Below are positions 41,051 to 62,916 of a stretch of 64,000 nt of DNA, one piece after another. The DNA is from Anaerocolumna cellulosilytica. GTDB taxonomy: Bacteria; Bacillota; Clostridia; Lachnospirales; Lachnospiraceae. A program made the translations under genes and the position numbers. How positions within the stretch are numbered: the first letter of the stretch is position 1; the number at the start of each line of letters is the position of its first letter. The stretch covers positions 1,861,501 to 1,925,500 of the forward strand of contig NZ_AP023367.1 in the NCBI RefSeq assembly GCF_014218335.1. The letters are read 5' to 3'. The notes under the pieces were generated by a model. The model did not search any database, was not told the origin of the DNA, and worked only from the letters and a program-made list of their open reading frames with translations.

Positions 41051-41091
41051 GCACCTCTGTACCCGAAGGTATGGAGGTGCAGCTTTTTTTT
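41051..41091 (+). terminator. Rho-independent terminator after cwlD
   Basis: GCACCTC-TG-TACC / GGTA-TG-GAGGTGC with loop CGAA, followed by eight T. Confidence 0.92.
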
Positions 41092-41209
41092 GTACCGGTC
41101 AAAAAACAATTGACAAACAGGAAAATTTAAATTACAATAAAAACATCAGAAATTTCATATAATTCATATAAAATTACTATGAAATAAAAACATTTCAAGA
41201 GGTAGAACC

Positions 41210-41290
41210 ATGTCTAAGTTTCATCAGGTAGAATTTAATAATTGCTGCTGCTTATGCATGTTTCCTGCCGAAATGGATATTTGCATATAG
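41210..41290 (+). CDS. Cysteine-rich leader peptide of the amino-acid importer
   Basis: A 26-codon frame with AGAGG eight bases before its ATG. It reads MSKFHQVEF then NNCCCLCM and ends in DICI: five cysteines, four of them within five residues. A terminator hairpin follows at 41341-41367 and the importer genes begin at 41461. Its binding protein resembles cysteine-binding receptors. The simplest reading is a ribosome-stalling leader peptide that senses charged tRNA-Cys and controls the terminator. The frame and codons are direct observations; the mechanism is inference. Confidence 0.65.
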   Translation: MSKFHQVEFNNCCCLCMFPAEMDICI

Positions 41291-41315
41291 TAGTTGTGTA
41301 AGAGTACTTATAATC

Positions 41316-41367
41316 TTGCAATGATGCAAAAAATCTTTAGGCAGGTGCAGGTGCAACTGCTATTTTT
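41316..41367 (+). terminator. Attenuator-like terminator before the importer operon
   Basis: GCAGGTGC-AGGT-GCAACTGC (41341-41360, one mismatch) is followed by TATTTTTG. An upstream segment TTGCA (41316-41320) can pair either with TGCAA (41325-41329) or with TGCAA (41352-41356) inside the terminator stem, giving mutually exclusive folds. Confidence 0.55.
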
Positions 41368-41460: not shown

Positions 41461-42120
41461 ATGGATTTTCAAGTCATTAGAGAATATATTCCGCTGTATC
41501 AGGAAGCTGGTATATTAACTGTAAGAATCGCTTTAATCGGAATAATAGGTTCGATTGTAGCCGGTTTTTTATGCAGCCTTATCCGGTATTTTAAGATACC
41601 GGTACTGCATCAGATTACAGGAGTCTACATTGAGCTTTCCAGAAATACACCGTTATTAATTCAATTATTTTTCTTGTATTTTGGATTACCTAAAATCGGC
41701 ATATTGTTAAGCTCAGAAACCTGTGCCATTGTAGGTCTTATATTCTTAGGCGGCAGCTATATGTCAGAGGCCTTTCGAAGTGGCTTAGAAGCCATACCTG
41801 ACATTCAGAAAGAATCCGGTTTAAGTCTCGGACTTAAAAAAAGGCAGGTTATCTGGTATGTTTTGTTACCACAGGCAATATCCATATCCGTACCGGCATT
41901 TGCAGCTAACGTTATATTTCTGATTAAAGAGACCTCCGTATTCAGTGCGGTAGCTCTGGCAGATTTAATGTATACAGCGAAAGTATTAATTGGTATGTCC
42001 TATAATACAGATGAGGCATTGTTTATGCTGGTTATCGCCTATTTGGTTATATTATTACCGGTATCTGCTTTGTTTACTCTATTGGAAAGGAAATTAAGGT
42101 ATGCAGGATTTGGGAATTAA
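41461..42120 (+). CDS. Amino-acid ABC importer permease (probable cysteine)
   Basis: A 219-residue HisM/GlnP-type permease with about five membrane segments and the polar-amino-acid motif VYIELSRNTPLLIQLFFLYF. The EAA region is ESGLSLGLKKRQVIWYVLLP. GGAGAGG precedes the ATG. It overlaps the next permease by 20 bases. Cysteine specificity is inferred from the leader peptide and binding protein. Confidence 0.9.
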   Translation: MDFQVIREYIPLYQEAGILTVRIALIGIIGSIVAGFLCSLIRYFKIPVLHQITGVYIELSRNTPLLIQLFFLYFGLPKIGILLSSETCAIVGLIFLGGSYMSEAFRSGLEAIPDIQKESGLSLGLKKRQVIWYVLLPQAISISVPAFAANVIFLIKETSVFSAVALADLMYTAKVLIGMSYNTDEALFMLVIAYLVILLPVSALFTLLERKLRYAGFGN

Positions 42121-42778
42121 TGTTCTGTTTCAGGGCAGAAATTTTATAAGGCTGTTAAACGGTTTATGGATTACCATAGAGATTTCCTTTCTATCGGTTA
42201 TTTTATCCATGTCTCTTGGAATTATAATGGGTATGATTATGACTATAAAAAACCCGGTAATAAAAATTATCACCCGGGTGTATCTGGAATTTGTACGGAT
42301 TATGCCGCAGCTTGTATTATTGTTTCTTATGTATTTTGGAATAACCAGAGCCTTTCAGATTAATTTATCCGGTGAAGTGGCGGCAATAATCGTATTTACC
42401 CTTTGGGGAACCGCAGAAATGGGAGACTTAGTTAGAGGAGCCTTAGAATCTATTCCCAAGCATCAGTATGAAAGCGGTAAGGCCATTGGTTTAACGAACA
42501 TACAGATATTTATGTATGTAATTATGCCCCAGACTATCAGAAGGCTGGTTCCTCAGGCAATTAATTTAGTAACTAGGATGATAAAAACAACCTCACTTAT
42601 AGCCTTAATTAACGTGGTTGAAGTAGTGAAGGTAGGGCAACAGATTATTGAAGCTTCCAGACTGACAGTTCCAAGTGCGGCTTTGTGGATATACGGTACT
42701 ATATTTTTCATGTATTTTATTGTCTGCTATCCCATCTCAAGATTGGCAGCCAGACTTGAAAAAGCCTGGAAGAACTGA
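42101..42778 (+). CDS. Amino-acid ABC importer permease (second subunit)
   Basis: A 225-residue permease of the same family (VYLEFVRIMPQLVLLFLMYF; ESGKAIGLTNIQIFMYVIMP). It overlaps the previous gene by 20 bases, implying translational coupling, and forms the channel with it. A 150-base gap with hairpins separates it from the ATPase. Confidence 0.9.
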   Translation: MQDLGINVLFQGRNFIRLLNGLWITIEISFLSVILSMSLGIIMGMIMTIKNPVIKIITRVYLEFVRIMPQLVLLFLMYFGITRAFQINLSGEVAAIIVFTLWGTAEMGDLVRGALESIPKHQYESGKAIGLTNIQIFMYVIMPQTIRRLVPQAINLVTRMIKTTSLIALINVVEVVKVGQQIIEASRLTVPSAALWIYGTIFFMYFIVCYPISRLAARLEKAWKN

Positions 42779-42928: not shown

Positions 42929-43702
42929 ATGAGTATAAAAAATACAATACTGGAAATAGAAAATCTTAAAAAAGCCTATGATGAAATTAAGGTACTTAAC
43001 GGAGTATCTCTTGACATTAAAAAGGGCGAAGTAGTAGTTATAGTGGGGCCTTCTGGCTGTGGAAAAAGTACTCTTCTTCGATGTATTAACGGACTGGAAG
43101 AAATACAAGGTGGGGAGATACGGTTGCAGGGAGAGATTATCAGCGGCAGACAAAAGAATATCCATCTGGTTCGGCAAAAAATCGGTATGGTGTTTCAGAG
43201 CTATGATTTATTTCCACATATGACTATTTTAAATAATATTCTGTTAGGTCCTGTTAAGTCCCAGCGCCGAGACAAAAAAGAAGTGACAGAAGAAGCAGAA
43301 AAATTATTAGAAAGAGTCGGACTTTTGGATAAAAGAGATGCATATCCCAGACAATTGTCCGGTGGTCAAAAACAAAGAGTTGCTATAGTAAGAGCCTTAT
43401 GTATGCATCCGGAGGTTATGTTGTTTGATGAAGTGACCGCAGCTCTGGACCCGGAGATGGTTAGAGAAGTCTTAGATGTTATGCTTGGTCTGGCAAAAGA
43501 GGGCAGTACTATGGTTATTGTAACACATGAAATGCAGTTTGCACGTGCTATTGCAGACAGAGTTATCTTTTTGGATAAAGGTGAAATTGTAGAAGAAGCC
43601 CCTCCTGAACTCTTTTTTACGAATCCGGCAACAGAGAGGGCAAGGAAATTTCTGAATGTCTTTGAATTTGATACTGTAAAAGGTATTAAAAATATAGAAT
43701 AA
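42929..43702 (+). CDS. Amino-acid ABC importer ATPase
   Basis: A 257-residue GlnQ/HisP-type ATPase. Walker [10 protein letters not shown], signature [15 protein letters not shown], Walker [15 protein letters not shown] and H-loop VTHEM are intact. GGGAAGG lies upstream of the ATG. Unlike the sugar importers in this window, this operon brings its own ATPase. Confidence 0.95.
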
Positions 43703-43716
43703 AAGAGGAGAATACT

Positions 43717-44571
43717 ATGAAGAAAATGAAAAAGGTATTTACATTACTATTATTGCTTAGCCTTGTTACAGCGGCAATAACCGGTTGTAAAAGCAGCTCC
43801 CAGGAAGGACAGGGAAATACAGCTAGAACCTTGGAAGATATCAAAAAAAGCGGAAAAATCATAATTGGTGTATTCAGTGATAAAAAGCCTTTTGGTTATG
43901 TAGATGAAAACGGCCTATATCAGGGTTACGATGTATACTTTGGAAATCGTATTGCCAAAGACTTAGGTGTTGAGGTAGAATATGTCTCTGTAGAAGCAGC
44001 AAGCCGTGTAGAATATCTGGTAACAGCAAAGGTAGATATCATCTTAGCAAACTTTACGGTAACAGAAGACCGTGCTGAAAAAGTTGATTTTGCACTGCCT
44101 TATATGAAGGTAGCTTTAGGGGTGGTATCATCTGATAATGCTTTAATAACAGATGCTTCTCAGCTAAACGGAAAAACTTTAATTGTTAACAAGGGTACTA
44201 CAGCTGAAACTTACTTTACAGAAAATTATCCGGACATCAAATTATTAAAATTTGACCAGTATAGTGAAGCCTACGGTGCATTATTAGATGGACGTGGTGA
44301 TGCCTTCTCAACGGATAATACAGAAGTTCTTGCTTGGGCTATTGAGAATAAAGGGTATACTGTAGGGATTGAATCTTTAGGTAACTTAGATACGATTGCA
44401 CCTGCTGTTCAAAAAGGTAATACTGAATTATTAAACTGGCTCAATGACGAAATCAAAACACTTGGAGAAGAAAACTTCTTTCATAAAAATTATGAAGAAA
44501 CACTGGCTCCGGTTTATGGTAATGCGGCTAATCCTGAGAATTTAGTAGTAGAGGGCGGCGTAATAGAGTAA
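43717..44571 (+). CDS. Amino-acid-binding lipoprotein, cysteine-receptor type
   Basis: A 284-residue family-3 solute-binding protein with lipobox AITGCK. The segments GVFSDKKPFGYVDENG, VDIILANFTVTEDRAEKVDF, LPYMKVALGVVSS and LIVNKGTTAETYF closely follow the cysteine receptors typified by Campylobacter CjaA/Cj0982 as I remember them. GAGGAG precedes the ATG. It is the last gene of the operon, before a terminator. Cysteine or cystine is the best ligand guess, supported independently by the leader peptide at 41210. Confidence 0.88.
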   Translation: MKKMKKVFTLLLLLSLVTAAITGCKSSSQEGQGNTARTLEDIKKSGKIIIGVFSDKKPFGYVDENGLYQGYDVYFGNRIAKDLGVEVEYVSVEAASRVEYLVTAKVDIILANFTVTEDRAEKVDFALPYMKVALGVVSSDNALITDASQLNGKTLIVNKGTTAETYFTENYPDIKLLKFDQYSEAYGALLDGRGDAFSTDNTEVLAWAIENKGYTVGIESLGNLDTIAPAVQKGNTELLNWLNDEIKTLGEENFFHKNYEETLAPVYGNAANPENLVVEGGVIE

Positions 44572-62870: not shown

Positions 62871-62912
62871 CTTGGACTGGTTCGAGAACTTCCCAGGATA
62901 AAAAACTAAGGA
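62871..62912 (+). ncRNA. preQ1-I riboswitch aptamer
   Basis: CTGG (62877-62880) pairs with CCAG (62893-62896) around the loop TTCGAGAACTTC, and the tail ATAAAAAACTAAGGA (62898-62912) is the conserved A-rich strand that forms the pseudoknot in preQ1-I (queC-type) riboswitches. A terminator follows at once, so preQ1 binding probably ends transcription. Recognition rests on the consensus sequence and fold, not on a search. Confidence 0.88.
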
Positions 62913-62916
62913 TTGA

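Follow-up and report, generated by a model that had tools for sequence, protein, structure and literature searches.

Comparative sequence analysis suggests that a short leader upstream of an amino-acid importer operon in Anaerocolumna cellulosilytica is very probably a cysteine-responsive, ribosome-mediated transcription attenuator, and that the importer would most likely be opened when ribosomes run short of cysteine. The leader was studied in a window of 64,000 nucleotides (NZ_AP023367.1, positions 1,861,501–1,925,500), to which positions below refer unless stated otherwise, from the 5.43-Mb genome of this organism (G000). A first-pass annotation of the window had proposed trp-like attenuation by cysteine, and among the readings weighed here this is the one that best fits the comparative evidence: recurrent Cys frames, terminators, and an exclusive antiterminator predicted in the window's own type of leader (type A1).

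A Cys-rich leader frame precedes a probable cysteine importer

The leader frame, MSKFHQVEFNNCCCLCMFPAEMDICI, comprises 26 codons and encodes five Cys, four of them within five residues, while an AAGAGG ribosome site (41197–41202) lies 7 nt 5′ of its ATG. The frame thus corresponds in coordinates, Cys content and ribosome site to that described in the first-pass annotation. Seven leaders of the window's type (A1) were aligned over the interval spanning Cys run and U tract; the three leading Cys codons are invariant at their first two positions and vary between C and T at each third position. The short frame, run of matching codons and ribosome site expected of a leader-peptide attenuator are all present in the sequence, and the frame is presumably translated. 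Comparable promoters precede the leaders of relatives. The upstream neighbour encodes a CwlD-like amidase (E 6.7e-65; 218.7 bits, just below the cut-off of 221.55), and its gene is followed by a terminator-like site at 41051–41080.

The four genes downstream (Table 1) encode an ABC importer of the polar amino-acid type. Its binding protein is closest to the solved structures 1xt8 (CjaA; E 1.8e-82) and 2yjp, with 280 and 279 bits compared to 133 for the next match, confirming the earlier proposal that it resembles CjaA-type cysteine receptors. The database listing names both structures amino-acid binding proteins, and we take both to bind cysteine. Cysteine is the probable substrate of the importer, such that the controlled genes would, by homology, import the same amino acid that dominates the leader.

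Table 1. Positions of leader and operon features in the window.
Feature	Position	Strand	Basis
Promoter, −35 TTGACA, 17 nt, −10 TACAAT	41110–41138	+	11/12 consensus matches
Candidate operator, inverted repeat TAATTCATAT-N7-CTATGAAAT, just behind −10, outside the attenuator proper	41160–41185		sequence, recurrence
Ribosome binding site region of leader frame, AAGAGGTAGAACC	41197–41209	+	sequence
Leader peptide frame, MSKFHQVEFNNCCCLCMFPAEMDICI	41210–41290	+	ATG 41210, TAG 41288–41290
Proposed stall site, codons TGC TGC TGC TTA TGC (Cys-Cys-Cys-Leu-Cys)	41243–41257	+	sequence
Predicted antiterminator helix, 5′ arm	41264–41277	+	alignment A1, covariation, RNAalifold
Predicted antiterminator helix, 3′ arm, overlapping terminator 5′ arm	41333–41345	+	covariation, RNAalifold
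Predicted intrinsic terminator, stem 41340–41348 with 41353–41361 (G.A mismatch), then AUUUUU	41340–41367	+	folding
ABC amino-acid importer permease 1	41461–42120	+	HEQRo_perm_3TM above cut-off
ABC amino-acid importer permease 2	42101–42778	+	HEQRo_perm_3TM above cut-off
ABC importer ATPase	42929–43702	+	nearest models GlnQ and TcyN, both below cut-offs
Substrate-binding protein, CjaA-like	43717–44571	+	homology to 1xt8/2yjp

Cys-rich frames recur upstream of related importers

The best 80 of 559 loci with related binding proteins in named genomes, 16 stretches from relatives and the window gave 97 loci. The first permease had an assignable start in 87 of these, and removal of five duplicates left 82 regions, window included, a set that is biased toward importers like the window's. 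Within 400 bases upstream, 23 of the 82 regions contain a frame with at least four Cys in six codons, compared to 0/82 on the antisense strand and 0.04 in dinucleotide shuffles; at a threshold of at least three Cys, the counts are 32/82 in sense, 3 in antisense and 2.6 in shuffles. The 23 include the window and five similar leaders (L117, L121, L122, L125, and L127).

A draw not chosen by leader covered 397 genomes of the family, 71 of which have a permease at E 1e-62 or better, and contributed 67 further upstream regions (the other four being the window and three already included). Frames with at least four Cys lie within 700 bases in 6/67 of these regions versus 0/67 in antisense, while frames with exactly three Cys are no better than chance in the 67 regions (6 sense, 4 antisense). 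A terminator stands behind the frame in four of the six leaders (L163, L165, L171, and L173); the frames of L185 and L201 have none and may be due to chance. These proportions indicate that the device is recurrent but patchy. The search for Cys-rich frames before this importer family, which the first-pass annotation had recommended, was therefore positive both in the collected regions and in the draw, and a chance origin of the Cys frame appears very unlikely from its sequence distribution.

Terminators accompany most of these frames. In a non-redundant set of 91 importer regions with a clear promoter, a terminator is located downstream of the −10 in 20 of the 23 regions with a frame of at least four Cys, compared to 24 of the 68 without one (Fisher p 2e-5), and 11 of those 24 carry a three-Cys frame. 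The median distance from the −10 to the gene is 288 nt with the frame and 85.5 nt where there are at most two Cys.

Leaders that combine at least four Cys with a terminator occur in Anaerocolumna (L050, L053), Herbinix (L052, L055), Lacrimispora (L114, L121, L127), Lachnoclostridium phytofermentans (L101), Hungatella (L125), Clostridium sp. HBUAS56010 (L095), a Peptoniphilus (L072), and several further bins, with the same peptide present in L171 and L101. Weaker leaders with three Cys, in Butyricicoccus (L069) and a Faecalibacterium bin (L115), have terminators with poor U tracts. Across 15 genomes of the genus, the leader is present in G000, G006, G007, G008, and G010; G011, G012, and G014 have a terminator only, G009 has neither frame nor terminator, and G002 and G004 lack the frame, while the contig of G001 starts inside the operon and G003, G005, and G013 gave no binding-protein match.

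Close relatives also include loci with a terminator and no frame (L128–L130), with neither (L131), and without a frame (L137, L141). The four best binding-protein matches all lack the frame, suggesting that the leader is easily lost. Loss of the frame in close relatives had been named beforehand as evidence against the attenuator; this is partly borne out, the frame being absent from L128–L131. Cys-run frames recur in many clostridia. By sequence, L128–L130 may represent an attenuator without its sensor or one placed under another signal. Upstream of the first permease, these three loci carry the hairpin GCAGATGC...GCGTCTGC, or one near it, followed by TTATTTTT, and no Cys frame.

We also searched for the leader as nucleotide sequence. 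In a DNA search of 41 genomes, matches outside its own genome at the importer covered the 3′ part only (query 117–179) and fell in G006, G007, G008, G010, and G011; three further short matches were found, and the one in G010 apparently lies in coding sequence, as judged by eye. A covariance model of A1, run with stricter filters, gave a single location in each of 5 of 116 genomes, the source genomes of five of its seven training sequences. On 25 sources, the model matched L058 and L052 (E 0.001 and 0.004) and L163 (E 0.022), outside its training set, at the expected place, along with weaker matches in L055, L064, and L129 and wrong-strand matches in L050, L053, and L082. In L054, two near-identical hairpin-rich copies with a core of about 65 bases were seen by eye in the roughly 300 bases preceding the first permease; this duplicated sequence is possibly a small mobile repeat.

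A predicted antiterminator overlaps the terminator

Folding predicts an intrinsic terminator between the leader frame and the first gene, with the structure GGCAG.G.UGC-AGGU-GCA.A.CUGCU (41340–41361; −10.4 kcal/mol including flanks) followed by AUUUUUG. A simple terminator scan of the window missed this site, whose stem contains a G.A mismatch. All seven A1 terminators fold at −7.9 to −10.7 kcal/mol, each with a U tract, and since their pairs hardly vary, they carry little information.

The predicted antiterminator helix uses positions 41340–41345, which are also used by the terminator, making the two predicted helices mutually exclusive. In A1 the antiterminator has 13 pairs, and 90.1% of the 91 cells are paired, compared to 36–51% when the partner is slid; two pairs are changed on both sides, and RNAalifold recovers the helix unprompted. 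Covariation is modest, with the number of compensated pairs reached by 172 of 500 shuffles, the covariation score by 12 of 500, and the paired cells by 8 of 500. The terminator that the first-pass annotation saw before the importer is recovered by folding, and its mutually exclusive hairpins have a predicted counterpart in the A1 helix. Of the covariation between terminator and antiterminator that it had suggested examining, the helix itself is kept across A1, but the covariation is limited and its support from shuffles modest.

In L048, L050, L051, L053, and L060, the leader frame ends with ACGGAATAA or TGGAATAA, which places the end of the antiterminator 5′ arm immediately ahead of the stop codon. 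The window's stop codon is located further 3′ and the pairing there is different (CCUGCC with GGCAGG); a ribosome at this stop codon would sit just downstream of 41264–41269, a looser fit than in the relatives.

A second leader type has a similar layout

A second type, A2, is represented by eight leaders like those of Lacrimispora and Hungatella, some of them near copies (L122, a near copy, and L171, which has the L101 peptide, were left out). By eye, the A2 sequences look unrelated to those of A1. The A2 terminator consists of 11 pairs with 98.8% of cells paired; four pairs are changed on both sides, a number that 23 of 500 shuffles reach, while its paired cells and its covariation score are each reached by 0 of 500. 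A candidate antiterminator, UAUCUG with CAGRUR, pairs 91% of cells compared to 56–57% for two slid versions. The candidate shows no covariation among the eight sequences, and RNAalifold does not choose it but picks the terminator. Its 5′ arm runs into the stop codon in five of the eight leaders (L095, L101, L117, L121, and L125). The layout common to the dissimilar A1 and A2 leaders, noticed after the fact, is suggestive. A2 additionally contains a three-pair helix between frame and terminator (columns 85–87 with 96–98 in L095, L114, L117, and their relatives), all three pairs of which change on both sides between subgroups.

Folding with ribosome positions

In equilibrium folding of the window's leader, the probability of the terminator is 0.00 with a ribosome at the first Cys codon, 0.96 with a ribosome at the stop codon, and 0.68 without a ribosome. 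The folding and occupancy tests covered 31 leaders picked by eye for having a frame and a terminator, a selection that favours the attenuation hypothesis and that contains near copies (L117, L125, and L127). Equilibrium folding separates the stalled from the finished ribosome in 6 of the 31 (the window, L048, L051, L052, L053, and L059). L050 and L060, which are of the window's own type, show no such separation, and in most other picked leaders the terminator wins in every ribosome state. Without a ribosome, the terminator probability is at least 0.95 in L048, L059, and L060 but at most 0.05 in L050, L051, and L053.

Occupancy of the antiterminator 5′ arm at the moment the arm has just been made averages 0.74 with a stalled ribosome, 0.41 with a ribosome at the stop codon and 0.61 in shuffles over the 31 leaders, although some of the gap between stalled and stop is to be expected from the shorter second fragment. 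Occupancy exceeds shuffles at p ≤0.1 in 11 of the 31 leaders, three of the 11 being near copies; the window gives p 0.15, no other A1 member reaches p 0.1, and in L050 and L060 occupancy moves in the wrong direction between stalled and stop. A duplex-energy test of the antiterminator, which is cruder and whose automatic choice of frame or terminator was wrong for several loci including the window, L048, and L050, listed 43 loci, of which 33 were testable and 5 reached p 0.05 (L060, L072, L108, L165, and L181). Outside the window's type, the signal from these folding models is mostly weak.

Proposed mechanism and alternative explanations

We infer translation, stalling, termination, read-through, and a cysteine signal, which would be connected as follows. 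RNA polymerase would start near 41145, and a ribosome would translate the leader frame. When Cys-tRNA is plentiful, the ribosome would reach the stop codon at 41288 and disturb the region behind the Cys codons; the antiterminator would then not form, the terminator would, and transcription would end before the importer. When Cys-tRNA is short, the ribosome would wait at 41243–41251, and the arm at 41264 would stay free to pair with the 5′ arm of the terminator, allowing the importer to be transcribed.

We regard as improbable a translated switch that senses general translation speed rather than cysteine and for which the Cys codons are merely slow. In any such device the stall position decides and not the amino acid, and leader peptides of this sort exist for antibiotic resistance genes, but the residue that recurs here is Cys, in leaders otherwise unlike one another in sequence and length, and the importer that follows has a binding protein similar to cysteine receptors.

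Still less probable is an active peptide product, in which a short peptide rich in Cys would bind metal or respond to redox state and act on expression of the importer. The frame's good ribosome site would be consistent with such a role and CCCxC clusters can bind metals; however, peptides of different types look dissimilar apart from their Cys run and vary in length between 13 and about 60 residues when counted from the first start codon, and the RNA helices behind the frames are kept within each type (A1 and A2).

The promoter carries a further candidate element. A repeat, TTCATAT-N7-ATATGAA, stands behind the −10 with at least 12 of 14 positions matched in 26 of 91 importer promoters, compared to 0.35 expected from shuffled letters, and is found in loci with and without a leader. 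The window's copy is one that we take to resemble CymR-type (CymR/Rrf2-like) sites; the passage on CymR in PMC2869319 gives no binding motif. Its occurrence irrespective of the leader, together with the frameless terminators of L128–L130, would agree with regulation by a CymR-like repressor at the operator alone, the leader being a relic or a weak constitutive attenuator. We assign this an equally small probability as the active peptide, given that the third positions of the A1 Cys codons vary while the residues stay, and that frame and terminator recur together in many genera. The two controls are compatible, and an operator and a cysteine-responsive attenuator can coexist.

That the frame arose by chance in an untranslated region has next to no probability, for although TGY runs are common in genome DNA (TGY-TGY-TGY-N(0-3)-TGY alone is not rare, with 113 genome hits versus 20 for the reversed pattern), the 23/82 sense frames stand against 0/82 in antisense and 0.04 in shuffles.

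A cysteine T-box in the same genome

The genome G000 has 18 T-box matches, 12 of them above the cut-off. The T-box at 1044624–1044854 of G000 (L150:1501–1731) precedes cysE-cysS and has a UGC specifier, as read from its alignment to the Rfam model; T-boxes before cysE are also present in the other four leader-bearing genomes, the UGC specifier being the reading for G000. The leader therefore stands beside T-box machinery for cysteine in one genome. The first-pass annotation had called cysteine attenuation unusual where T-boxes, S-boxes, or CymR ordinarily serve; the leader is there as it described, yet the organism has the UGC T-box before cysE-cysS as well.

A T-box was considered as the control of the importer itself and rejected: above gathering score, the only Rfam match in the window is a preQ1 riboswitch at 62871, and Rfam 15 gave no match in the leader. 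The riboswitch (RF00522) occupies 62871–62915 on the + strand with 44 bits. A scan of 48 loci (16+14+18), picked mostly for having no Cys frame (L078 has a distant one and L142 a four-Cys one), revealed no Rfam element, T-box and S-box included, on the importer's strand in its upstream region. The hits in these loci were tRNAs, one sRNA model (L087), and one opposite-strand RNA (L120), and in L065 a SAM riboswitch lies downstream of the binding-protein gene.

Comparison with known systems

In the E. coli trp attenuator, the position of the ribosome chooses between terminator and antiterminator, and the proposed leader would resemble it in this respect. Unlike in trp, the arm that forms the antiterminator is situated 3′ of the Cys codons, and it reaches to the stop codon in several relatives. 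Judged by sequence, the leader fits the classical attenuator class as a Firmicutes representative. A literature search of open-licence PMC articles, mostly of titles and abstract openings, found no cysteine leader peptide in Firmicutes, and frames as short as this one are easily missed in annotation.

We see about an even chance that clostridia possess a broad, so far undescribed class of Cys leader attenuators on the CjaA-type importer, in which dissimilar leaders arose or were rebuilt several times upon one design (Cys run, antiterminator arm near the frame end, terminator), and which operates in cells that also control synthesis genes through a cysteine T-box. If so, import and synthesis would read the same tRNA pool via two RNA devices, and an RNA route of sulfur control would be added beside T-boxes and S-boxes. 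With one genome and one amino acid, leader and T-box would form an easily testable pair of devices.

The uORFC-8-2 motif precedes cysS in Rhodobacterales, and the authors presume ribosome stalling at its Cys codons; as presented in PMC8632094, it shares with the present leader two stems, a 3′ U run, and a frame that carries Cys codons in tandem, but differs in belonging to Alphaproteobacteria, in preceding a tRNA synthetase gene, and in having two tandem Cys codons. The present leaders, which we liken to it by layout, are mostly clostridial, precede an importer, and have 3 to 5 Cys in 6 codons.

Mycobacterial leaders have reportedly been the subject of later experimental work by Canestrari in 2020. 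According to passages of PMC1262725, Cys leader peptides precede cys operons of Mycobacterium and Propionibacterium acnes and cbs of Bifidobacterium longum; these are like the present leaders in being short Cys-run frames before cysteine genes, but they belong to Actinobacteria, their Cys codons lie near the stop codon, and they have no conserved terminator hairpin.

For Firmicutes, the sections of PMC2940859 on cysteine control describe T-box, S-box, CymR, and LysR-type regulation. Cysteine T-boxes of Clostridium perfringens precede transporters and cysKE, and resemble the present leader in premature termination that answers charged tRNA-Cys; they differ in sensing the tRNA directly, translation being unneeded (PMC2940859). 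The same source, in those sections, points out that cysteine genes of several clostridia have no T-box in front of them, and allows for other mechanisms; a cysteine leader device would be one such alternative.

A paper on branched-chain amino acids in Listeria mentions a "leader peptide" and an "attenuator" (PMC5864092). In bacilli, His leader peptides precede hisZ and hisS*, as set out in the portion of PMC2965389 concerned; they are alike in representing leader-peptide attenuation in Firmicutes, and differ in amino acid (histidine), in host group (bacilli), and in controlling synthetase-type genes. By that portion of the same account, no leader-peptide attenuation was known in 2010 outside Proteobacteria and Actinobacteria apart from ermC, and a clostridial attenuator would lie outside both groups to which the mechanism has long been tied (PMC2965389).
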